A stretch of 25,749 bases of DNA, taken from IMG/VR virus record IMGVR_UViG_3300027841_000013, positions 1-25,749 of that record; one strand, given 5' to 3'. This DNA comes from a virus. The notes below the pieces were generated by a model. The model was not told the origin of the DNA and did no database searches. It saw only the letters and a program-made list of their open reading frames with translations. Made by a program: the position numbers and the translations under genes. Of this stretch, positions 3,326-24,477 are shown one piece after another. Position 1 is the first letter of the stretch, and every line of letters begins with the position of its first letter.

Positions 3326-5618
3326 CTAAGTCAATCTCCGGCATGACGGCATTAATCGTTAACGGGAGCGGGTCGCGTTGTTGAATAACAAGCGTTCCAT
3401 TGATCCCCCACACACTTTGAACCAGAAGCTCTTTGTCGCCGGTAAATAGTCCCGTCGCCTCCCCGTAGACTTCATCACTTCGCCATTTGGCTTCTGTCAT
3501 GCGCGACGTGTCCGGTCCTGCCCACATCCCCCTTGACGCTTCCAGCCTTGCAAAAAGCCGGACGACTCTCCGCTTCCTGCCGTTCGCCCCCTGTACTTCC
3601 AGCGGTAGCATTTCGATTGTCGGCGTCGGTATCGGCAACCCGGCATGGGCGACGGTTGCCGCTTGCGGGATAGTCACAGCCCCGGACGTTACGGTCAATC
3701 CCTTCCACACGGAACCGTCGGCCAGAACGTCAACGGTTTCTCCCTCAAGGTGGTCAAGGCCGGAAAGCGTGGTTGTCGCCGCACCGCTGTATGATAACGC
3801 TGAATCAAGGAAGACGCCAAGTGTAACGTCGCTTGCCGCTTGTCGATCCGTTAAGTATTCCACATACCGAACTGTTGATCCGCCAATTGTTCGATTGACG
3901 ATAAAGCATACTTCGTCCGAAGCTCCTATCCCAGGTATAGCCGCCACGCTTTCAAACGTTCCGTCGGTTGAATGCTGCGCCCACCCCCATACTTCATGCT
4001 CTTTCAAGTAGGTGAACGAAAGCAACGATCCGTCCGACATGATGCACCAAATAACAGAATTCGGCCGCTGTTGGTATGCCCATTCCTTGACCGTCTTCCC
4101 GTCAAATAGGTGTTGAGATAGTACGCTCAGGTTGTTCGCTTCGTACTTATCGACGGCGAATGAGTACCCCAAGTCCTGAACCGTCGCCCCGTCCCGCTGG
4201 ACAAATAGCACGGTTGATCCAATGACCAGCGGCGGAACGTCGGAACAACCACGGTACGACTGAACTCTTAGGTTAATACTCGTCGGCGTCAATGCGTCTG
4301 AGTTGGCCCCTGAATCCATGATCCACTCGGCCCCACTGGTCAGGACGATGAGCTTATCAAGAGGGACGATATGTCGGATCTCGTTGACCTGCCGCGAAGC
4401 TATTGTCACTTCGATCATGTCCGTGTCTTTCAGCGGACGCGATTTCGAAAAGTTGTAAAATTGGCCTGTCTGACTTGCCCATATCGTTTGCGAATCGGAA
4501 TCGCTTGCAGCGTAAACAAGGCGTTGCTCGAAAATACCGACGGCCCCAGGATAATTTGAACTTGCGAACGGGTTGTAACTCTCCTTAGGCCCATCACTAA
4601 CATCCGGGTCGATGTTGTCGTCGGTGTAGGTTGTCCCGGTAACGGTCCCAATCCACCCGAAATAACCACGGCTGGATTTGTATACGTTGTAGGCTTCCGC
4701 TCCTGATACAGAACTCCATGCCAGAGCCACGGTTGCACCGGACGCCCATGGGGTATCGACGTCCTCATCCACAGCGGTACACGGCAAGCTTTCCTCTCCA
4801 TTGATAATGCTGGAGACTTGATAGCTGATTGTCCGCGCCGGCAACGCCCCTTCGGAATAGGTGGCGGTCAATCCAGTTGGGGCCGTGGCGGTGGGCGCAA
4901 ACGTGATGGTTGCAAACGTCCACTTGTGATGATCGGTTCTGGTCAAGGTCCGCTGTGCATAATCAGGGTGCGCCAAATACATGGTGTCAGCGCTTTGGGT
5001 GAACTTAATTTTTGCCAAAGCCGCGTATGAATAAGGCGATACTACGCGAAAAGTGCATGAAACAGCGGTATCGTCGCCAGCGTCGGGGTCGGAATCATCC
5101 GGCATTCTTATATAAATGGTACTGAAACCAAGGGAATCGTTGTCGCCCCACGCCCATTCCCCAGCCGAAAGCGCCCCGATTACTCCAACTGTTGCCGTTG
5201 TAGAAGAGAAAAACACCTCATCGCTTGCCGGTTGCGGGAACGCAGGGTCGGCGTCGGCGCTTGTGGTTAAATAATACTCGCTCGTCCCGCTGCCGCTGGC
5301 TGTCCATTTCCAATCGGAATCCGACAACGGGCGAAGGACTAGCCCGCCATCCTTGATTACGCGCATTATCCCATTGGTAAACTCAAGAAAATACGACTGT
5401 TCCACGTTGTAGCTGAACGGGATAAGTCGTCCTGCTGCGGGTGCTTTTCCGACAAAATACGTTCCAGGTCGGTTTTCAACGCCTCCCTGTGGGCGCACAA
5501 TGAAATTAAGACAGGTCTTTAGCCCGCTTTGATATTTCGAAAGATCGACGCGCCCGTACATCGACGGGGCAAGCTCTCCGGAAGCGAATGACGGTTGCGC
5601 TGTGCGCGTTATCGGCAT
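3318..5618 (-). CDS. Tail tubular protein B-like / tail nozzle protein
   Basis: A large 766-residue virion protein. The N-terminus (QPSFASGELAPSMYGRVDLS, then KYQSGLKTCLNFIVRPQGG and NRPGTYFV) is a recognisable signature of a common podovirus structural protein that follows the TTPA gene. Much of the rest is beta-rich, with a fibronectin-III-like stretch around residues 245-345 (APTGLTATYSEG...SGAEAYNVYKSSRGYFGW). It probably builds the distal tail tube (nozzle). It starts three bases after the stop of the TTPA-like gene. The family is recognised with fair confidence; equivalence to T7 gp12 is inferred from position and size. Confidence 0.7.
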   Translation of the reverse strand: MPITRTAQPSFASGELAPSMYGRVDLSKYQSGLKTCLNFIVRPQGGVENRPGTYFVGKAPAAGRLIPFSYNVEQSYFLEFTNGIMRVIKDGGLVLRPLSDSDWKWTASGSGTSEYYLTTSADADPAFPQPASDEVFFSSTTATVGVIGALSAGEWAWGDNDSLGFSTIYIRMPDDSDPDAGDDTAVSCTFRVVSPYSYAALAKIKFTQSADTMYLAHPDYAQRTLTRTDHHKWTFATITFAPTATAPTGLTATYSEGALPARTISYQVSSIINGEESLPCTAVDEDVDTPWASGATVALAWSSVSGAEAYNVYKSSRGYFGWIGTVTGTTYTDDNIDPDVSDGPKESYNPFASSNYPGAVGIFEQRLVYAASDSDSQTIWASQTGQFYNFSKSRPLKDTDMIEVTIASRQVNEIRHIVPLDKLIVLTSGAEWIMDSGANSDALTPTSINLRVQSYRGCSDVPPLVIGSTVLFVQRDGATVQDLGYSFAVDKYEANNLSVLSQHLFDGKTVKEWAYQQRPNSVIWCIMSDGSLLSFTYLKEHEVWGWAQHSTDGTFESVAAIPGIGASDEVCFIVNRTIGGSTVRYVEYLTDRQAASDVTLGVFLDSALSYSGAATTTLSGLDHLEGETVDVLADGSVWKGLTVTSGAVTIPQAATVAHAGLPIPTPTIEMLPLEVQGANGRKRRVVRLFARLEASRGMWAGPDTSRMTEAKWRSDEVYGEATGLFTGDKELLVQSVWGINGTLVIQQRDPLPLTINAVMPEIDLGG

Positions 5619-5621
5619 GAC

Positions 5622-6206
5622 TTAAAGCCTCGCATTAACGAAAGATTTACCGATTTCAAGCACCCTGTTCCCGCCGCTCCGCCCGTCTACTGTTCGGGCT
5701 TCGGAAAGCGTTTGCTTGAACATGTTCATCATGGCCCCGACGTAGTTCGGATCACGGGATAGCGGCATTGCAAGATCGGCGGAAAGACGGTATGACAACG
5801 CTTCAACGAAAAGATCGTCGAATTTGGTTGTGTCGGTTTCGTCGTATGTGTATTTCAGCCATGCCGTTGATTCATCCGTTTGAATTGTCTGCCCAAGCGC
5901 CTCAAACTCGACCTTTTCATAGTCCGGGTAAACGGTCCCATCCGGCAACACTTCGATTACCCGCAGGCAATCTGCCGGCTTTTGATAAACATACTCGTAT
6001 CGGTAGGAAGTTTCCGCGCTCAATTCCGCCAGTTGTGCAACTTTCGTTGCGAATGACCAAGCGTGTCCGCGTAAGGTCGCCTTTCTCGCGTCGTCAAAAA
6101 ACTGACGGCAATAAGCCGCTTCCGTTGATTGCTCGTTAATGGATTGGATCGGGGCTTGCCCTACGCGAAGCAAGGCTTTGTTGCAGATGGATATTTGACT
6201 TGCCAT
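5622..6206 (-). CDS. Tail tubular protein A-like (gatekeeper)
   Basis: A 194-residue protein beginning ASQISICNKALLRVGQAPIQ, which is the classic opening of phage tail tubular protein A (T7 gp11-like). Further family features are YCRQFFDDARKATLRGHAWSFA (residues about 32-53) and the YEYVYQKPADCLRVIEV segment. In the family this protein forms a ring between the portal and the nozzle, closing the channel and anchoring fibres. An AAGGGGGC ribosome site precedes ATG at 6206. The downstream TTPB-like gene follows at once. Confidence 0.87.
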   Translation of the reverse strand: MASQISICNKALLRVGQAPIQSINEQSTEAAYCRQFFDDARKATLRGHAWSFATKVAQLAELSAETSYRYEYVYQKPADCLRVIEVLPDGTVYPDYEKVEFEALGQTIQTDESTAWLKYTYDETDTTKFDDLFVEALSYRLSADLAMPLSRDPNYVGAMMNMFKQTLSEARTVDGRSGGNRVLEIGKSFVNARL

Positions 6207-6215
6207 GTCGCCCCC

Positions 6216-7511
6216 TTAAAGGTGAAGAATGACTTTCCCGAAGATGAGAGAGATGCCGGAACTGGTTGAACTTCCACCCGACTTTGTGGCATACGCCGGA
6301 CTTCCGGTAATGGCGATTGCCGTTGGTGATGCTGTGGCGACGTAGGTTTTTGTTGCAACGGCGTCAGCGCCAGTAATAGCGACGGTTCCAGGCCCGGCAA
6401 TGCTTGCGTACCCGGTTGCGGCGTTGGCATCGCTTCCGGTGATGACGATTGTGCCAGGGTCGGCGCTGGTAATGTGAGTTTGTACGCCTGTTGCTGGTGC
6501 GCCAGAAATAGAGACAATTCCTGGTCCTGCGCTGGAGACGGTCGAGCCGGTCGGCGTGTAAACGCCTTCCGCTGGGAATCCCGCGATTGCAATGCTTGCA
6601 GCGGTAGCAAGCGAAACGAGCGAACGGATGCCGGACGCGACGGAACCGGCGATTGATACGGTACCGCTATTGGCGCTTGAAACGCTGGTTTTTACTCCTG
6701 TAGCGGAGGTTCCGGATATTGCAATGTTTCCAGGATCGGCGGAAGAGTTGGTGTTCCCTGTCGCCGGGATAGAATACACCGGGCGCGATACCGGCATGAC
6801 AAGAGCATATGGGGTGGCGTAAAACTGCAACATTTGATCGGCGGTCAGTGCGTCGGCGACGATAATCAGCAACCGATGGTCAAATGTTCCGTTGCCGCCA
6901 GACCACTGCCCGCCCGCCTTGAACGTCTGAGTAGCGCCCATGGCGGCGGTATGTGCCGCCGAGTTGGAAAACCGGCCTTGGTAATAACCAGAAACCGTTG
7001 TTCCGTCCCATGTCGCGCCACACATTATTTCCGCGCCATTGGTGACCGCCCCTCCGGATAGTCCTACCGCCACTCCGGACTTGTAATACCACGAGATGAC
7101 ATTAGTCGATGACGACTGGTAAAGCCCAAGATCGTATCCGGTCCCGCCGTCCTGAAAATTCCCCAGAAAAAAATTCGAGACTGTCGGCCTGGCAACCACG
7201 CCAACCGACGAAATAACCGTGTATTTTGACGACGTTGATCCGAGAATTGAAGAAAGCGTTTTCCCGGCGTTCCACTTGTTCGCTGTCCCGCACCTATACC
7301 CATTCACCACCCATAATGGGGACGTGGTAGACAGGTTGTTGCCGTTGGTTGTCTGGTCGGAGACGCTAATCCCTCCGCCTTCCCAAAAAGGGACAACAGC
7401 CTTGAGCAATCCGGGATCACCAAAAATTCTTCCGGCGTTCTCGAATATTGCCCGTTGTATTGCGTCAGGAGGCCCCCACATTGGGGGTCTTATGTCGGGC
7501 CGGAAAATCAT
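6216..7511 (-). CDS. Phage tail protein with ConA/LamG-like domain and 22-residue repeats
   Basis: A 431-residue protein in two parts. Residues about 40-240 look like a concanavalin/LamG-type beta sandwich of the kind found in phage appendages; the end FDHRLLIIVADALTADQMLQFYATPY resembles the 'ALTADEI..LY.NP' closing helix of that group. Residues about 256-415 are seven tandem repeats of about 22 residues with the core S(A/P)xPGTIAITG...ATGV (one copy is 26 residues long). The ATG overlaps the stop of the upstream gene (ATGA). A role as fibre, appendage or capsid decoration is likely but not proven; carbohydrate binding is inferred from the fold. Confidence 0.66.
   Translation of the reverse strand: MIFRPDIRPPMWGPPDAIQRAIFENAGRIFGDPGLLKAVVPFWEGGGISVSDQTTNGNNLSTTSPLWVVNGYRCGTANKWNAGKTLSSILGSTSSKYTVISSVGVVARPTVSNFFLGNFQDGGTGYDLGLYQSSSTNVISWYYKSGVAVGLSGGAVTNGAEIMCGATWDGTTVSGYYQGRFSNSAAHTAAMGATQTFKAGGQWSGGNGTFDHRLLIIVADALTADQMLQFYATPYALVMPVSRPVYSIPATGNTNSSADPGNIAISGTSATGVKTSVSSANSGTVSIAGSVASGIRSLVSLATAASIAIAGFPAEGVYTPTGSTVSSAGPGIVSISGAPATGVQTHITSADPGTIVITGSDANAATGYASIAGPGTVAITGADAVATKTYVATASPTAIAITGSPAYATKSGGSSTSSGISLIFGKVILHL
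6260..6746 (-). repeat. Tandem repeats of about 66 bp encoding seven degenerate 22-residue units
   Basis: Within the ConA/LamG-like protein gene the translated units align as SSADPGNIAISG..., SSANSGTVSIAG..., SLATAASIAIAG..., SSAGPGIVSISG..., TSADPGTIVITG..., SIAGPGTVAITG... and ATASPTAIAITG.... The DNA copies have diverged, so these are old repeats rather than a recent expansion. The pattern predicts a regular beta-rich stalk. Confidence 0.8.
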
Positions 7512-7894
7512 GCGGCGTAGGTACTCTGAGAGATTCGGCAGTTAACGGCGGTCGCCGACTGCGCGGTGTCGGTGTTGGTGACACGCACCTGAAACTCGCC
7601 GACAAGATTAGCATCAACCGTGACCGTTTTCGTAACTGTGGTGCCTGCCGTAAACGGCACCGGAACCGTCCACGCCGACGCTTGCGATTCGTAGGCCGGT
7701 GTGTTAGCCGATTCGCGTTCGATCAGGATGTTGCATCCTTTGGTCGCGCTGGCGTTGTAAGTCACATCCACGGCGACGGTGGTACTGGTCTTGGCGGCGT
7801 TGGACACCGCGCCGAAAACATAGTTTCCACTGGCGGCAATCGTTTGGTTCTGCGTTCCAAGGTCGGAAAAGTTACCTTGCGTAAACCCACCCAT
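7508..7894 (-). CDS. Hypothetical structural protein (Ig-like beta-rich)
   Basis: A 128-residue protein. I place the start at the ATG at 7894 rather than 7912, because GGAGGT lies six bases upstream and the ATG overlaps the previous TAA (TAATG). The sequence is rich in Thr, Val and Ala with alternating hydrophobic strands (TSTTVAVDVTYN, TVTKTVTVDANLVGEFQVRV), suggesting an immunoglobulin-like beta sandwich. Such small proteins next to tail genes often serve as decoration or adaptor proteins. No specific family recognised. Confidence 0.6.
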   Translation of the reverse strand: MGGFTQGNFSDLGTQNQTIAASGNYVFGAVSNAAKTSTTVAVDVTYNASATKGCNILIERESANTPAYESQASAWTVPVPFTAGTTVTKTVTVDANLVGEFQVRVTNTDTAQSATAVNCRISQSTYAA

Positions 7895-8349
7895 TACATC
7901 ACCTCCCGACACCGCTCAACCATCGCGGTGGTGATTTCGCTGTATCCAAGTTGCTGCGCTCTGCTGGTCTTGGTTTCGGCCAGGGCCTTGATTGCGGCGG
8001 CTTCGGCGGCGGTCAGTAGTCCGCCGAGGGCGAACTGGTCGATCATCCCCCGCGCTTCGGCCAGGGAAATATCCACCCCACCCGCCGAAACGTCGGTCAG
8101 CATCCGGCAAATGCGCTGCATCACCCGGTCGGGCATGGCCTCCAGAGCGTCGAAGACCGCCGTAGCTCGTTCCGCACCAAGGACGGCGAACAGTGTGCGC
8201 TCCGAAATCATGCGCTCCGAAAGCGACAAATAGCGCGGATCGTTCAGGTCGGCGGCGACTTGTTCGGAAGTCAGCGCGGAATATCTCTGTGCTTCCGTAT
8301 TTGAGACAAGCTCGTTAAAAAGGGGTTGTAGGCTGCTGTTAAGTTCCAT
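7894..8349 (-). CDS. Hypothetical helical phage protein
   Basis: A 151-residue, mainly alpha-helical protein (ELNSSLQPLFNELVSNTEAQ at the start; AGGLLTAAEAAAIKALAETK-like helices near the end). No signal peptide, membrane segment or catalytic motif. It follows the upstream gene with almost no gap and is coupled to the downstream gene through TAATG. The profile, with the RYLSLSERMISERTLFAVLG segment, resembles small helical proteins often encoded beside podovirus tail genes, but I do not recognise a named family. Confidence 0.6.
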   Translation of the reverse strand: MELNSSLQPLFNELVSNTEAQRYSALTSEQVAADLNDPRYLSLSERMISERTLFAVLGAERATAVFDALEAMPDRVMQRICRMLTDVSAGGVDISLAEARGMIDQFALGGLLTAAEAAAIKALAETKTSRAQQLGYSEITTAMVERCREVM

Positions 8350-8350
8350 C

Positions 8351-8611
8351 TCAAACCTCCACGGTATGCAAAATCATTTCTCCGGAAACACTTCGATGCC
8401 ACTTAACTTGTCGGATTCCGATTTCCTTCATCTTTTCCCGTATTGCCGGAATGTCAGATATGCGCCCGGTTGCACCCTTGATTTCGGCGACGTCTCCGAC
8501 TATCGAAACTACCGCCGCAAAGGAATATGGATCTCCGTGATTTTCGTGCGATTCGCCGGACCGCAACAAAAAGATGGGAGTCGTGGTTATCGGCTCTAGA
8601 GTTGCCCCCAT
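8351..8611 (-). CDS. Hypothetical phage protein
   Basis: An 86-residue protein with a mixed alpha/beta pattern (SFAAVVSIVGDVAEIKGATG, then a helix IPAIREKMKEIGIRQVKWHR). The spacing of strand, glycine-rich turn and helix is faintly reminiscent of half of a GNAT domain, which is not enough to assign a function. AGGTGA lies six bases before ATG at 8611. It sits in the continuous structural operon between two beta-rich proteins. Confidence 0.58.
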   Translation of the reverse strand: MGATLEPITTTPIFLLRSGESHENHGDPYSFAAVVSIVGDVAEIKGATGRISDIPAIREKMKEIGIRQVKWHRSVSGEMILHTVEV

Positions 8612-8622
8612 GAAGTCACCTG

Positions 8623-9057
8623 TTAGGTAATCGTTCCTTGGCCAATGGTCATTATGGTTCCGGCTGTCGCGTCATTGTTGAAGTTGATCGTAAACGTCTC
8701 CGTCGCGGCAAGATCGACGTTGCTCCCATGGTCCCACCAGCAAATGAGCTTGTCGCCGGTCGAGGTGTCGTTATACAGCCCGTAGTATCGGAACGTCGGC
8801 ACGGTATCGGTCGCCGTAATCACAACGGCGTCACTGGAAAGCACGGTATCCGTCGCGTCGGACACGGCAATCGTTACTGTTGGTTGTCCGCCGCTGACGT
8901 TGGTGTACGCGATTTGGCCGGTCAGGTCGGCCGCCTCGTCCATGTCGGCGGTCGGAGCCGTCGAAGACAGAAATAGCTTGATGGTGTCCGTGCCGAAGTT
9001 GTGAACACCCTTTGCCAACTGCTCTGCAAAGTCGTTGAAAATGTTAATTGTCGCCAT
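8623..9057 (-). CDS. Putative virion-associated beta-rich protein
   Basis: A 144-residue protein opening MATINIFNDFAEQLAKGVHN, followed by DTIKLFLSSTAPT and strands rich in Thr, Asp and Val. Small proteins with this opening are frequent in podovirus head/tail regions and are usually annotated as structural. No signal peptide or enzymatic motif is seen. An AAGGAGACA ribosome site precedes ATG at 9057. A role as a minor head or tail component is inferred from the neighbourhood only. Confidence 0.62.
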   Translation of the reverse strand: MATINIFNDFAEQLAKGVHNFGTDTIKLFLSSTAPTADMDEAADLTGQIAYTNVSGGQPTVTIAVSDATDTVLSSDAVVITATDTVPTFRYYGLYNDTSTGDKLICWWDHGSNVDLAATETFTINFNNDATAGTIMTIGQGTIT

Positions 9058-9066
9058 GTTGTCTCC

Positions 9067-9312
9067 TTATGATTGGTCTGGGGTGGCGTATGTCAGAACG
9101 TACCGGTCGCCCCACGCGGTGGAATATCCCGTTGAGCCGAAACAATACAGCGCTTGTTTTGTGGATATCTCAACTTGCACGACACACCACGCCCCGGCTG
9201 GAGAAACCAGACCGATATAATGATAAGTCCCGGTGTTTTCGTAGTCGGTGTACAGCAGCGAATTTAGAATATCGTTCGGCCGTAACCGATCAATAAACTC
9301 CGCGTAACTCAT
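9067..9312 (-). CDS. Hypothetical phage protein
   Basis: An 81-residue protein rich in aromatic residues and beta strands (TYHYIGLVSPAGAWCVVQVEIS). The ATG overlaps the stop of the upstream gene, so it is translationally coupled in the structural operon. Length and gene order suggest a minor virion component; no family recognised. Confidence 0.58.
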   Translation of the reverse strand: MSYAEFIDRLRPNDILNSLLYTDYENTGTYHYIGLVSPAGAWCVVQVEISTKQALYCFGSTGYSTAWGDRYVLTYATPDQS

Positions 9313-9713
9313 TAGTCGATCTTCCGGAGAGTGAGCGTAATGCAGTAGTTGTTAGTCGCGGTCGTCCCGGCGGTCGTGAACATGATATCCCCGGTGTCTC
9401 CGGCGGCGGTAATCTGCATCCCACCAAAAGCGGAAAAGTCGAAAGACCCGCAACCTGGGGCCAGAACAAGCGCATTGACGTCTGTGGTATGGTCAAAACT
9501 GATCTTGACGGACGTGTAACCGCCGATGCACCACTGAACCTTCTCAATGGCCAACATGGACGGCTCGGTCCCGTCCGGCCCGGTCAACGTTGATTTGTCG
9601 ACCTTGACAACGTTAGTTTCGGCTGTATCCACATAGATATTCAGGAACGTGGCCGCGTAGTATTTTTTCGGGTCTTGTGTCTGGTGGACGTGTGTTGCAA
9701 CGGTAGCGGCCAT
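9312..9713 (-). CDS. Hypothetical structural protein (beta-rich)
   Basis: A 133-residue protein composed largely of beta strands (KYYAATFLNIYVDTAETNVV, YTSVKISFDHTTDVNALVLA, TNNYCITLTLRKID). A decoration or cement-like role is plausible for such proteins near the capsid genes, but this is inference. The start is directly preceded by the stop of the 9714-9983 gene, and its own stop overlaps the next ATG. Confidence 0.58.
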   Translation of the reverse strand: MAATVATHVHQTQDPKKYYAATFLNIYVDTAETNVVKVDKSTLTGPDGTEPSMLAIEKVQWCIGGYTSVKISFDHTTDVNALVLAPGCGSFDFSAFGGMQITAAGDTGDIMFTTAGTTATNNYCITLTLRKID

Positions 9714-18469: not shown

Positions 18470-18724
18470 TTACTCCGTATTTGCGGATTTATGGTTTTGC
18501 GTCAGTAGCGTAAGCGCATCTCGCGTCTGTTTCAGTACATCTTCGTACTCTAAAATCCGTTCATTCAGTTCTTCATTGCTCCCCTCATACTCGCACCCGT
18601 GATTTGACATTTTCAGGTATCGAGTGCCGTCTTCGCGCTCCAGAACCCAAGCTTTCGAGTCTGATCCCCAACCATCCCACAGCACCGTGAATTCCATCAA
18701 CACCTTATCTTTTGCTTGTTCCAT
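18470..18724 (-). CDS. Hypothetical small phage protein
   Basis: An 84-residue protein with a strand-rich first half (LMEFTVLWDGWGSDSKAWVL) and a helical C-terminal half (NEELNERILEYEDVLKQTRD) likely to form a coiled coil. AAAGGTGAG precedes ATG at 18724. It is the first gene downstream of the tRNA-like element. No family recognised. Confidence 0.6.
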   Translation of the reverse strand: MEQAKDKVLMEFTVLWDGWGSDSKAWVLEREDGTRYLKMSNHGCEYEGSNEELNERILEYEDVLKQTRDALTLLTQNHKSANTE

Positions 18725-18751
18725 GTCTCACCTTTCTCGTTAAAAAATTAG

Positions 18752-18834
18752 TGGAGCGTGTAGGAGTTGAACCCACATCCCGAGCATAGTGCGCACTATG
18801 TTGCCTCGTGACCTACCGATTAATCGAACGCTCC
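18752..18834 (-). tRNA. tRNA-like gene with aberrant anticodon arm (isotype not assignable)
   Basis: An 83-base tRNA-like sequence without encoded CCA. Acceptor GGAGCGT/ACGCTCC pairs perfectly; D arm GATT-AATCGGTA-GGTC and T arm GTGGG-TTCAACT-CCTAC look normal. Between them, where 17 bases are expected, are 28 bases that fold as CGAG/CTCG, a 5' GCAA bulge, and a tip made of the perfect 16-base palindrome CATAGTGCGCACTATG. A 7-base anticodon loop with T33 cannot be drawn. A class II reading (long variable arm) was tried and gave no good anticodon stem. It may be a tRNA pseudogene or a tRNA mimic. Confidence 0.6.
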
Positions 18835-18859
18835 GTGTTTTGATACGATTGAATGATGG

Positions 18860-18907
18860 TTTTAACCAGTCATTCGACGGGTAAAGCCCGTCAATTCCGC
18901 GTTAGGC
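18860..18907 (-). repeat. attC-like site 5 (after DUF551-like cassette)
   Basis: Minus strand: R'' GCCTAAC (18901-18907) contains the stop codon of the cassette gene; the arms ATTGACGGG / CCCGTCGAAT pair around a 5-base loop with one unpaired base in the R'-side arm; R' is GTTAAAA (18860-18866), slightly off consensus. 48 bases long, the same length as site 1. Confidence 0.75.
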
Positions 18908-19123
18908 TGGTATATCCAACCATTCAGTTGGGTGTAAAATATGAGAACGCCCCCCGTGTAACCGAAACCATCCGGCCGGAACTGCCAAACATCGGTTTCC
19001 GTTGACCATTCTTTCCGGTCGTTTCATCTGCCACCGGACCAAATCGGGCTGGTAGCTTTCTTCCCTTATAAGAATCGGGCGGTCCATCGGTGATGTCTCT
19101 ATCGGTTGCCAACCGTGTTTCAT
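18902..19123 (-). CDS. DUF551-like protein (cassette gene)
   Basis: A 73-residue protein starting MKHGWQPIETSPMDRPILIR, the typical opening of DUF551 proteins (W-QPIET-P-DG-PIL), which are common in phages and of unknown function. The family pattern continues with strands carrying Trp and His near the C-terminus (AGWFRLHGGRSHI, PTEWLDIPA). I choose 19123 because GAGGTG lies upstream; the longer frame would start inside the attC site. The cassette start box GTTAGGC lies 13 bases upstream, and the TAA stop lies inside the R'' box GCCTAAC of its own attC. Confidence 0.82.
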   Translation of the reverse strand: MKHGWQPIETSPMDRPILIREESYQPDLVRWQMKRPERMVNGNRCLAVPAGWFRLHGGRSHILHPTEWLDIPA

Positions 19124-19135
19124 TTTGCACCTCAT

Positions 19136-19234
19136 GCCTAACCATAAAATCAGCCGGAAGTGGTTACGCTTGCTATTCTCGACAAACTCGGTGGCGCTCC
19201 GGCTGTCTGCGCCTCCGGCTATCATGCGTTATGC
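19136..19234 (-). repeat. attC-like site 4
   Basis: Minus strand: R'' GCATAAC (19228-19234) includes the stop codon of the 19229-19441 gene; arms AGCCGGAG / CTTCCGGCT pair with one unpaired base on the R' side; R' GTTAGGC (19136-19142) fits the GTTRRRY consensus exactly. 99 bases long, the best single match to a canonical attC in the array. Confidence 0.87.
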
Positions 19235-19441
19235 CAAATGACCAAATTCATTTAGCATCTGTGCCCGCACTTTCCACCCGGCCTCGTGCTCTTGCCCGGT
19301 GATTTTTCGGTATCGCCTCACTGCGGCGCTGGTAAACGACACTGTTCCAGAGCATGACGTATTCATACGCTCAGCAATCCAGTCGTAATCTGTCTGAGAC
19401 ACTTCAACAATTCTTCCGGAATCAATATGTAAAAATGGCAT
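19229..19441 (-). CDS. Hypothetical cassette protein
   Basis: A 70-residue protein, MPFLHIDSGRIVEVSQTDYD..., with a strand-turn-helix opening and a basic middle (SAAVRRYRKITGQEHEAGWK). The ATG lies inside the R' box GTTATGC of the preceding attC, and its GGAG ribosome site lies in the attC stem; an alternative ATG at 19447 is too close to GGAG. The TAA stop lies inside the next R'' box (GCATAAC). The gene therefore fills its cassette edge to edge. No family recognised. Confidence 0.7.
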   Translation of the reverse strand: MPFLHIDSGRIVEVSQTDYDWIAERMNTSCSGTVSFTSAAVRRYRKITGQEHEAGWKVRAQMLNEFGHLA

Positions 19442-19526
19442 AACCATTCACTCCAGCGGACCCGGTTTAGCGGTGTGCTCCTGGCCAAGGTCCGGTGGCC
19501 GGGTCCGCTGAGTTCAATCGTTGTTA
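19438..19526 (-). repeat. attC-like site 3b (end of the gene-less mini-cassette)
   Basis: Minus strand: R'' TAACAAC (19520-19526), arms ACTCAGCGGACCCGG (plus 19499-19513, reverse complement) and CCGGGTCCGCTGGAGT (19450-19465) pairing over 15 bp with a single extra base, and R' GTTATGC (19438-19444). The one-base bulge lies in the same arm as in sites 1, 4 and 5. Confidence 0.83.
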
Positions 19527-19549
19527 CGGACGCTTCGCGCCCGTAACAA
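19444..19549 (-). mobile_element. Gene-less mini-cassette of 106 bp
   Basis: Bounded by crossover points of sites 3a and 3b. It starts with TTGTTACGG and its R'' side reads CCGTAACAAC, a 10-base match to its own start box. Only about 22 bases lie outside the attC, with no room for a gene. The stretch shares 25 identical bases with the end of the 19973-20494 cassette, suggesting a decayed relative that lost its gene. Confidence 0.65.
19519..19543. repeat. 25-bp direct repeat, copy 1
   Basis: Identical to 19968-19992 (starts CGTTGTTACGGACGCTTCGC, ends GCCCG). It covers the mini-cassette's short spacer and R'' box. Confidence 0.95.
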
Positions 19550-19642
19550 CGCGGCGCGGTGATCTGGGCTGGTTGTTCGGCGCGCAGCGCCAACCAGCCA
19601 GTGAAGCGGTCCCTGCGGGCAGCTCACCGCGCCGCGTTATCT
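19544..19642 (-). repeat. attC-like site 3a
   Basis: Minus strand: R'' AGATAAC (19636-19642) containing the TAA of the cassette gene, outer arms AACGCGGCGCGGTGA / TCACCGCGCCGCGTT (15 bp, perfect), an inner 9-bp stem GGCTGGTTG / CAACCAGCC, and R' GTTGTTA (19544-19550), which departs from the RRR consensus. 99 bases long. The unbroken stem is less typical of attC than the other sites. Confidence 0.7.
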
Positions 19643-19891
19643 ATCATTCCTTGCGCCCCGATATGCACGGCCAGAGACATTGGCCCCATTATCCATATCA
19701 TCGTGCATGTCAGTAAGCATACAGCCAGCATTTACGGATAATGTTATTGTTTCAGAAACATCCGACGATGGTACGCCGACCTTGCAAACGATCAGATTAG
19801 TATCGGTTGTGTATATTAGTAAGTTTTTTGGTTTACGCTTTGCTAAGCGGTTCATGTCGTCAATCCATTTCTGTTCCACTGACGTCAACAT
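19637..19891 (-). CDS. Hypothetical cassette protein
   Basis: An 84-residue soluble protein, MLTSVEQKWIDDMNRLAKRK..., with a basic helix followed by beta strands (NLLIYTTDTNLIVCKVGVPS) and an acidic segment rich in Asp and Met (MLTDMHDDMDNGANV). I choose ATG at 19891, five bases after GGAG; ATGs further upstream lie in the attC. The start box GTTATCT lies 22 bases upstream, and the stop lies inside the R'' box AGATAAC. No family recognised. Confidence 0.66.
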   Translation of the reverse strand: MLTSVEQKWIDDMNRLAKRKPKNLLIYTTDTNLIVCKVGVPSSDVSETITLSVNAGCMLTDMHDDMDNGANVSGRAYRGARNDR

Positions 19892-19912
19892 AGTCTCTCC
19901 GATCAACATGAT

Positions 19913-20000
19913 AGATAACCAGCGGGTCAAAGCCCGACTCGGTTCCCTCGCGGTTTACCCGCAAGGCCGTTGTTACGGACGCTTCGCGCCCGCGTTAGCT
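19913..20000 (-). repeat. attC-like site 2
   Basis: Minus strand: R'' AGCTAAC (19994-20000), arm GCGGG pairing with CCCGC before R' GTTATCT (19913-19919). A second possible R'' (TAACAAC) lies inside it at the gene's stop codon, in the 25-bp repeat, so the left boundary is ambiguous. AGCTAAC matches the cassette's own start box GTTAGCC at 6/7. Confidence 0.65.
19968..19992. repeat. 25-bp direct repeat, copy 2
   Basis: Identical to 19519-19543, 449 bases apart. Here it encodes the last residues of the 19973-20494 protein and its stop codon. Confidence 0.95.
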
Positions 20001-20494
20001 CTCAGCAATTCACAGCGCGCCAGCCATCCGGCCTTGTCTCCGGCCGCAAGGTACGGAGCCGCCAGTTCGAGCGTGCTCAGCGCGTTGCTGTAATACGTGA
20101 TGCCCTCGCCGTTGCGGCCCCATAGGTTTGTGATCCCAAAGCACTCGGCCAGGGCTTGAATGCTTGCGCCGTGCGGTTTCTCGGCCACGGCCGGGCCGTT
20201 AGCGAAAATCCAGTCAAGGTCGCTCTTTTGCTTGCGCTCGGCCTCGTCCTCGTCTTCCCAGGCTTGCAGCTTGTCCAGGCGTCCGGACTCGATCAGCGTC
20301 AACTGGCTGCCGTAGTACCAAGCACACTGGCCCTTGCCTTTCAGGTGCAGCGTGAAACTGTTTCGGTCGCTGCCGCCATGCTGGTCGGCGTAGCTGCCAA
20401 GCACGATGGCTTCGCAGTCGGACGTGAAGTGTCGCATATTCGGCCCAAGGTCTTTGGCCACGCGAACCCAGTCGCCTTTCTGAAACTTTTGCAT
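19973..20494 (-). CDS. Hypothetical cassette protein, SH3-like N-terminus
   Basis: A 173-residue protein, the largest cassette gene. The N-terminus MQKFQKGDWVRVAKDLGPNM begins like a small SH3/KOW barrel (KGDWVRV), continuing with CEAIVLGSYADQHGG and FTLHLKGKGQCAWYYGSQLT. The middle is acidic and helical (LQAWEDEDEAERKQKSDLDW), and the C-terminal half is helical. GGAGAGA precedes ATG at 20494. The reading frame passes through the first R'' candidate (AGCTAAC read as Ala-Asn) and ends in a second TAAC. No catalytic motif seen; function unknown. Confidence 0.75.
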   Translation of the reverse strand: MQKFQKGDWVRVAKDLGPNMRHFTSDCEAIVLGSYADQHGGSDRNSFTLHLKGKGQCAWYYGSQLTLIESGRLDKLQAWEDEDEAERKQKSDLDWIFANGPAVAEKPHGASIQALAECFGITNLWGRNGEGITYYSNALSTLELAAPYLAAGDKAGWLARCELLRANAGAKRP

Positions 20495-20518
20495 TACTCT
20501 CTCCTATCGTTGGCTTAA

Positions 20519-20566
20519 GGCTAACCCTGCGTTCCAGCGGACGTGCCGCTGAACTCCACGTTAAAT
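20519..20566 (-). repeat. attC-like site 1 (left by the resident gene)
   Basis: Minus strand: R'' ATTTAAC (20560-20566) fits RYYYAAC exactly; arms GTTCAGCGG / CCGCTGGAAC pair with one unpaired base around a 5-base loop; R' is GTTAGCC (20519-20525). 48 bases. It lies 13 bases after the stop of the membrane protein gene. Confidence 0.8.
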
Positions 20567-20579
20567 ACCAAATACCTGA

Positions 20580-20924
20580 TTAACTTCGTTTCACCAGTAA
20601 AACGAGAAGAGGTGTCAAGACTATTGCAAATATAGGCAACAGTACCCGCCCTGCGACGTAAGGAACAAAGAAAACCAGCTTGCCAAAGGCATTCCAACTG
20701 TCCCAATTATCGCGCTGATGCTTTTGCATAAGCCCTCGGAGATCGATATACTCCAAGTATTTAACAACGGCATGGAGCATAAATCGTTGATCGTGGTTCA
20801 GTAGATTACAAATTATCAGTTTGGTTTTCTTGTCCGGCATCGACTTAAAGATTTGACCGCCGAAGCCAACTCGGTATTGCCTGGCGTGTTCGCAATCGAA
20901 GTTGCACATCCTTGGCTTCGGCAT
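20580..20924 (-). CDS. Hypothetical protein with C-terminal membrane region
   Basis: A 114-residue protein. The N-terminal part has Cys and His in CNFDCEHARQYRVGFG; the C-terminal 40 residues are hydrophobic (LVFFVPYVAGRVLLPIFAIV, then LTPLLVLLVKRS), enough for one long or two short membrane segments. The ATG follows the stop of the Lar-like gene by one base (TGACATG), so it belongs to the phage operon. It is followed by an attC-like site but has no cassette start box upstream, so it looks like the resident gene next to the insertion point. No family recognised. Confidence 0.65.
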   Translation of the reverse strand: MPKPRMCNFDCEHARQYRVGFGGQIFKSMPDKKTKLIICNLLNHDQRFMLHAVVKYLEYIDLRGLMQKHQRDNWDSWNAFGKLVFFVPYVAGRVLLPIFAIVLTPLLVLLVKRS

Positions 20925-20925
20925 G

Positions 20926-21135
20926 TCAATATTTCCTCAATTCGGCCAGTGCCCGCGTATTCCACTTGTCCTTCGCCTTTTTGCCGATGTAATCGTCCGG
21001 CACTACTGCGCCGCATGTCTCGCATTTCACTGATTCCCCGCCGTCGCCGTGCCCAAACGTAACGCGGCCCATCCGAGTTTTTGTCCCGCCACAAAACGGG
21101 CACGGCAACAATCTTAGTTGTGTTGAATCAGTCAT
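20926..21135 (-). CDS. Lar-like zinc-ribbon protein (restriction alleviation family)
   Basis: A 69-residue protein with the Lar-type zinc ribbon: PCPFCGG (C12, C15) and KCETCGA (C38, C41), followed by the closing KDKWNTRA motif (W58-N59). In lambdoid phages Lar eases host type I restriction; many relatives have no tested function. I place the start at 21135, where AGGAGG lies upstream, rather than at the longer frame. The C-terminus ALAELRKY is nearly identical to that of the adjacent upstream gene. Confidence 0.8.
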   Translation of the reverse strand: MTDSTQLRLLPCPFCGGTKTRMGRVTFGHGDGGESVKCETCGAVVPDDYIGKKAKDKWNTRALAELRKY

Positions 21136-21140
21136 TGTTT

Positions 21141-21329
21141 TTAATACCTCCTCAGTTCGGCCAGTGCCCGAGTCAAATCCATGCTGGCTCGGCGGACAGT
21201 TCCAGTGTGTTTCGGGGACCACATGATACTGCTGGACAAGTCGTCCAGCGTCGCGTCTTCAAGTCTTCGGATAGCGGCACTCAGTCGGGCCATTTCGAAT
21301 TTCACCACGGCAATCTTATCTTTTTTCAT
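21141..21329 (-). CDS. Hypothetical small phage protein
   Basis: A 62-residue basic helical protein, MKKDKIAVVKFEMARLSAAI..., ending LTRALAELRRY. I choose ATG at 21329 because GGAGG lies just upstream; the longer reading uses TTG without a ribosome site. The last codons (CTGAGGAGGTAT) also provide the Shine-Dalgarno of the next gene. Shares its C-terminal 8 residues, save one, with the Lar-like protein. Function unknown. Confidence 0.6.
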   Translation of the reverse strand: MKKDKIAVVKFEMARLSAAIRRLEDATLDDLSSSIMWSPKHTGTVRRASMDLTRALAELRRY

Positions 21330-21412
21330 AAACCTCCAAATTTCGTTTTTAAGATGTTTTTTTTCAAAAGCCTTATCGTGGTATGCGTTGTGCTGTGTTC
21401 GTCGAACCTGTG

Positions 21413-21562
21413 TCAATCCTGTTCGATTGGCGCATGTTTCGTGCTAACTGGCGCGAAGTGTTTTGCGATTAGTTTCAGAAACGCGTCCTTCATCGCCTTT
21501 TCTTCCCGCCATTTTCGTTCGGTGTCCGCCAGCGCTTCCCTGAGTCGTTCGATTTCAGTCAT
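21413..21562 (-). CDS. Hypothetical small coiled-coil protein
   Basis: A 49-residue protein: opens MTEIERLREALADTERKWRE and ends HAPIEQD. The start overlaps the helicase stop by eight bases (ATGACTGA), a strong sign of real coupled translation. The heptad pattern of the first 25 residues predicts a coiled coil. It could be a helicase partner, but that is inference from the overlap only. Confidence 0.55.
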   Translation of the reverse strand: MTEIERLREALADTERKWREEKAMKDAFLKLIAKHFAPVSTKHAPIEQD

Positions 21563-24427: not shown

Positions 24428-24477
24428 TTTGACCTCGGTGCATGGGGCTTATAACCCGTCGCTCAAGCGTTATATTT

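Follow-up and report, generated by a model that had tools for sequence, protein, structure and literature searches.

Integrons are bacterial gene-capture devices, the genes of which are read in the direction of their attC sites from one promoter, and bacteria swap resistance genes as integron cassettes. In 'reverse' integrons the integrase gene intI is flipped and precedes sense cassettes. The integrase IntI recombines the folded bottom strand of attC, which fixes the orientation of the cassette to attI and normally permits expression from the cassette promoter Pc (PMC11023631). Inversion of the Vibrio cholerae integron, with the bottom strands placed on the lagging template, sharply raised cassette excision (PMC11023631). 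In 2023, 17 phage CALINs, i.e., attC clusters without an integrase, were published with DNA methyltransferases among their cargo, and IntI1 recombined five of six tested phage attC sites (Qi et al., PMC9892861). The CALINs of the virulent phages Tetrasphaera phage TJE1, Pseudoalteromonas phage H101 and Polaribacter phage P12002L (PMC9892861) consist, like the array described here, of attC-bounded cassettes without intI. The present array is very probably an integron cassette array, integrase-less within its record, that gives a podovirus-like phage a slot for gene exchange in its early operon and has a phage-adapted antisense design.

The window, the whole stretch of 25,749 bases that was analysed, is a complete IMG/VR record, linear and without end repeats, and represents a 25.7-kb fragment. 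A podovirus-type phage is encoded on its minus strand, with genes for a terminase, a head-tail adaptor (portal), a major head protein, tail tubular and other tail proteins, a DnaB-like helicase, a replication initiation protein and a transcriptional regulator. The contig of the array thus qualifies as a phage genome, with terminase, portal, capsid and tail genes all present. The best GenBank phage matches of the terminase were 46-48% identical. Just upstream of the array, the phage operon includes a Lar-like restriction alleviation gene (20926-21222); its neighbour, the ORF at 21141-21416, has nearly the same terminal sequence. The fragmentary record had no match to the integron integrase model TIGR02249. 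As the record is a linear 25.7-kb fragment, this absence applies to the record and not necessarily to the whole phage.

The sequence-only reading had placed six attC-like sites in the array and proposed a check with an attC covariance model. The model used (R1) was trained on 49 sites of bacterial integron loci located with an IntI alignment, none of them from the window, and strong covariation among the training sites backs the attC structure. Four of the six sites were recovered, with E-values from 1e-9 to 8e-5 and scores of 26.1 to 45.2 bits, while the next-best score in the window was 11.4 bits:

18860-18907, plus strand: attC of cassette Z, 30.1 bits
19136-19234, plus strand: attC of cassette E, 26.1 bits
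19438-19526, plus strand: attC of cassette D, 30.4 bits (match to 19524), fold z-score -4.6
20519-20566, plus strand: attC of cassette A, 45.2 bits, E-value 1e-9

All four have R''/R' boxes, an L''/L' stem and one extra base in the L'' arm. The other two borders, 19544-19642 and 19913-19975, are present at the positions proposed and were not scored as attC by R1 (6.9 bits or none). Both carry proper boxes and fold strongly (z-scores -6.9 and -2.5, respectively), and they are degenerate attC sites or sites of another type. A weight matrix of attC ends, which is independent of R1, ranked the same four sites at the top and assigned them to the plus strand by 16-35 bits. Canonical attC sites, e.g., of R388, have the extra unpaired base in the 5' arm when read on the coding strand of the gene; in the window, the arm with the extra base lies on the plus strand. 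As control of the polarity call, 113 of 113 R1 matches in bacterial loci (training sites included) and 154 of 156 in viral contigs with intI were on the strand expected from intI. With at least two attC sites no more than 3 kb apart and, in the record, no neighbouring intI, the array has the composition of a CALIN. Rfam scans of the window yielded no attC family. BLAST searches with the array gave none or chance matches against plasmids and one 30-bp chance match against phages. A 27-nt remnant at 24449-24475 (TTATAACCCGTCG/CTCAAGCGTTATAT), adjoining a tRNA-Thr, resembles the two ends of one attC joined without the hairpin between them (11.0 bits, E-value 0.5).

The five cassettes proposed earlier are present, yet the array begins earlier, at the box GTTAAAA in position 18739, which adds an ORF-less sixth cassette (18739-18901). 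The array thus extends over 18739-20566 with six cassettes (Z, E, D, C, B and A), four of them with ORFs (A, B, D and E). The features of the array and its flanks are:

18470-18724, minus strand: phage ORF downstream of the array, its ribosome-binding site GAGAAAGGTGAG starting right after the left crossover point
18739-18907, plus strand: cassette Z, start box GTTAAAA at 18739 and R'' box TTTTAAC at 18860, without ORF
18755-18837, minus strand: tRNA-like element in cassette Z with a 7-bp acceptor-like stem, a T-arm-like hairpin and a disrupted anticodon arm
18901-19234, plus strand: cassette E, start box GTTAGGC at 18901 and R'' box GCCTAAC at 19136
18902-19135, minus strand: ORF of cassette E, start at 19135 or 19123, with the DUF551-like motif WQPIETSPxDxxIL...PTxWLxIP
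19228-19526, plus strand: cassette D, start box GTTATGC at 19228 and R'' box GCATAAC at 19438
19229-19441, minus strand: ORF of cassette D, about 70 aa without assigned family, filling the cassette, stop codon TAA inside the box
19520-19642, plus strand: cassette C, box pair GTTGTTA/TAACAAC, without ORF, with a hairpin and a long stem at 19544-19642
19636-19975, plus strand: cassette B, start box GTTATCT at 19636, R'' box AGATAAC at 19913 and R' box GTTGTTA at 19969, degenerate attC
19637-19912, minus strand: ORF of cassette B, about 90 aa, ribosome-binding site GGAGAG inside the cassette
19969-19994, plus strand: putative remnant of a second copy of cassette C, a 25-bp exact repeat of 19519-19543
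19994-20566, plus strand: cassette A, start box GTTAGCT at 19994, R'' box GGCTAAC at 20519 and R' box GTTAAAT
19973-20494, minus strand: ORF of cassette A, 173 aa, N-terminal half SH3-like by fold, a phage protein family
20580-20924, minus strand: phage ORF upstream of the array in the direction of transcription, bordering the empty site on the right, its stop codon separated from the array by 14 bp

The tRNA-like element was not called as a tRNA by ARAGORN or Rfam. Judged from the letters, the 25-bp exact repeat (about 19520 and 19969) marks a second cassette C copy with an internal deletion.

Insertion of circular cassettes predicts that the start box of a cassette pairs with the R'' box of the same cassette. 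The sequence-only reading had seen this pattern, and it holds exactly: the start box is the reverse complement of the own R'' box at seven of seven positions in cassettes Z, E, D, C and B and at six of seven, with one mismatch, in cassette A. At the four variable bases of each box, own-cassette pairing reached 23 of 24, a value attained by the identity permutation alone among 720 permutations, versus 8 of 24 for the two boxes of one and the same site. In the arrays surveyed below (335 segments), the own-cassette match was 3.6 of 4 bases in bacterial and viral loci alike, and boxes within one site matched at 2.8 of 4 in bacterial and 2.5 of 4 in viral loci. That the sites are fortuitous inverted repeats, or transcription terminators that separate small phage genes, as weak scattered finder matches elsewhere in the window might suggest, has a negligible probability: for the four scored sites this reading is refuted by the E-values against a background of 11 bits, and the unique box pairing speaks against it as well. 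A further perfect box pair, GTTAAAT at 20560 and ATTTAAC at 20759, was rejected as an additional cassette that would cut the ORF 20924-20580; no attC follows at 20759, where the candidate reached 24.5 points and a matrix score of -2.9, and the pair is probably due to chance.

The array occupies a defined position in the phage genome. When the flanks are joined at the outermost G^TT, the minus strand reads from the end of the ORF 20580-20924 through a short spacer into CGAGAAAGGTGAGACATG, i.e., the ribosome-binding site and the start of the ORF 18470-18724. This is a compact intergenic region; the array thus fills a gap between two phage genes and breaks neither. An empty or variant insertion site was not found, a search with a 25-mer of the left flank matching only the contig L003. 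This contig of 7.5 kb, which comes from another metagenome (IMG 3300004155) and is 100% identical, was the only close relative of the window among the viral contigs. Its position 1 corresponds to position 18902 of the window, so that it covers the array no further than cassette Z, and no variant arrays were seen. The contig breaks off a single base after the G^TT crossover predicted for the junction of cassettes Z and E, which may reflect an assembler break where the next cassette varies in the population, or chance. No attC was found in the more distant terminase relatives (L004-L017), and the ORF 20580-20924 had no relative in the viral contigs.

All cassettes had been described in the sequence-only reading as running in the direction of the phage. 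For the ORFs this is correct; the attC sites, however, point in the opposite direction, which had been missed. With attC on the plus strand and the ORFs of cassettes A, B, D and E on the minus strand, in the direction of phage transcription, four of four ORFs are antisense to attC. A gene co-directional with its attC, a usual though not strictly defining trait of cassettes, is absent from the array. It was considered whether the cassette genes really lie in sense on the plus strand, where cassette A contains an ORF of 115 aa, and the minus-strand ORFs are spurious. We regard this as highly improbable. At least for cassette A, the best case, the minus-strand ORF is real: its protein has a 67% identical relative in the viral contig L307 and a full-length fold match to a protein of Klebsiella phage Miami (E-value 8.7e-12, 36% identity, TM 0.73; pLDDT of the structure model 73). 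The minus-strand ORFs of cassettes A and B have internal ribosome-binding sites, and that of cassette E encodes the DUF551-like motif. In L307 two attC sites (28 and 31 bits) lie near the homolog, and their polarity is again opposed to the genes. No relative of the cassette A protein was found in the genome contigs or in five integron-bearing genomes. The ORF of cassette E had no Pfam match, although DUF551-like ORFs are antisense in the viral arrays L201, L226 and L239, too; family searches with the ORF of cassette B yielded sub-threshold matches only.

Gene direction relative to attC was surveyed in three sets: bacterial intI loci, viral contigs with intI, and viral contigs retrieved by an attC DNA pattern that is blind to gene direction. 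In bacterial intI loci, 65 segments were sense and 7 antisense (n=72); 26 contigs were sense, none antisense and 3 tied. Viral contigs with intI had 32 sense and 75 antisense segments (5 contigs sense, 26 antisense, 2 tied), and the contigs found by the attC pattern 24 and 110 (6 sense, 38 antisense, 2 tied). In total, 185 of 241 viral segments and 64 of 79 viral contigs were antisense (11 contigs were sense), as counted for one attC subtype and IntI1-like integrases, without correction for relatedness and with some possibly bacterial contigs, e.g., L147, included. Fisher's test on the segments, with related contigs counted separately, gave p = 2e-25. Genes flanking the antisense arrays were co-directional with the cassette genes at a ratio of 155:45. 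Homology bore out the strand: when the longest ORFs of each strand were searched, the viral antisense ORFs yielded 20 Pfam families and the viral sense ORFs 7, versus 49 for the bacterial sense ORFs and none for the bacterial antisense ORFs. The viral antisense families were mostly phage anti-restriction or DNA-modification genes, led by N6_N4_Mtase (7) and Dam (3), followed by DNA_methylase, MT-A70, Mom, DUF551 and PAPS reductase (2 each) and including Lar and RNA ligase. Methyltransferases in L245, L223, L191, L246 and L252 and the RNA ligase in L263 were opposite to the attC polarity given by the model. Terminase genes were present on 11 array contigs. L152 is clearly a phage, with a RecE-like exonuclease, a methyltransferase, an antisense array, an IntI homolog and tail fibre genes. 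IntI-like integrases are encoded on no fewer than 270 IMG/VR stretches, many with adjoining attC arrays; 80 of the stretches (L105-L184) were kept.

Integrons of Proteobacteria, chromosomal or mobile (class 1, R388), share with these arrays the attC sequence and structure, the box pairing, the cassette sizes and the geometry of attC to intI. They differ in that the genes run with attC from Pc next to attI, with the few antisense segments counted above, and that the cargo is bacterial. In the viral contigs with intI, attC is placed relative to intI as usual and only the genes are flipped, thus cassettes and intI form one phage operon. The 'reverse' integrons of Treponema denticola and others (PMC6557892) have intI and cassette genes likewise co-directional, but there intI rather than the genes is flipped. 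Inversion of the genes is not universal in phages, since the cassettes of TJE1 are sense (attC and ORFs both on the plus strand), without intI. Rctr41k (L022, KX853513) apparently carries a complete integron with intI in reverse orientation: at 4680-9434, an IntI 45% identical to IntI1, annotated in the deposited record only as 'integrase-like', is followed by about five attC-like sites and a methyltransferase, the cassettes being sense and intI reversed. TJE1 and Rctr41k reach co-direction differently from the antisense arrays. P12002L (L305) leans antisense with weak scores. In this isolated phage, attC candidates at 30005-30059, 38032-38093 and 38876-38939 lean to the plus strand, with methyltransferase and Mom-like genes on the minus strand; inversion may therefore occur in a cultured phage.

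The antisense design can be understood from the mechanism of integration. IntI would recombine the folded attC bottom strand, and circular cassettes would enter at G^TT with plus polarity. Since the attC polarity opposes the phage operon, only cassettes with genes against attC would be transcribed by the phage. The cassette genes would then be transcribed from a phage promoter within the minus-strand operon, without Pc. In related viral contigs encoding IntI, the genes point towards intI, so that cassettes and then intI may form a single co-directional operon; phages would keep the attC-intI geometry and obtain expression from an operon running the other way, in which only inverted cassettes are useful. 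As the fragmentary 25.7-kb record holds no integrase, we infer the cassette movement, for which IntI might come in trans from the host, from another phage infecting the same cell or from the part of the genome that has not been sequenced. An added or alternative benefit may be that the attC bottom strand, being the coding strand, is exposed; if genes follow the fork, it would also lie on the lagging template. It is possible, if not the expected case, that antisense cassettes are favoured mainly for recombination and not for expression: with the bottom strand on the coding strand, which transcription exposes, and also on the lagging-strand template if genes and fork run the same way, cassettes would be excised and shuffled more while the phage replicates. 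The far higher excision of the inverted V. cholerae integron (PMC11023631) is in line with this, but co-direction with the operon explains the pattern equally well, and both may hold together.

An exchange slot has to be weighed against a relic, an array that was taken over from a host integron in a single event of illegitimate or homologous recombination and is now immobile. Such a capture has been proposed for phage CALINs by Qi et al. (PMC9892861); the lack of IntI in the 25.7-kb fragment, the degenerate borders of cassettes B and C and the deletion of one cassette C copy would agree with it. Both ends of the array, however, resemble exact G^TT junctions, joining the flanks yields a natural intergenic region, four of four antisense genes are not expected from bacterial arrays with 7 of 72, and the cargo of cassette A is phage-type. 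A relic is therefore unlikely. We favour the exchange slot, and it appears probable that phages own a separate integron lineage and a pool of inverted cassettes, i.e., anti-restriction and DNA-modification genes antisense to attC, which would be exchanged by phage-encoded IntI and expressed in the phage operon instead of from Pc; the phage of the window would be a member with intI lost or not shown.

The sequence-only reading rightly recognized integron cassettes in a phage operon whose record has no integrase. Its judgement of the case as unusual needs to be qualified, as phage CALINs were already published and attC arrays are frequent among IMG/VR contigs. The apparently new part is the systematic inversion of genes against attC, for which we know of no earlier report. 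The literature searched, with preprints and most subscription papers outside its scope, contained no report of antisense cassettes in phages, and in Qi et al. (PMC9892861) the gene polarity relative to attC goes unmentioned. Annotation tools that assume sense cassettes may miss or mislabel antisense arrays. Two questions become testable: is cassette polarity under selection for expression or for exposure of the bottom strand, and do phages maintain a cassette pool apart from that of bacteria? Reversed cassettes would explain expression without Pc, and the reversed-gene phage integron, if true, would serve phages as a dedicated means of exchanging counter-defence genes with one another.
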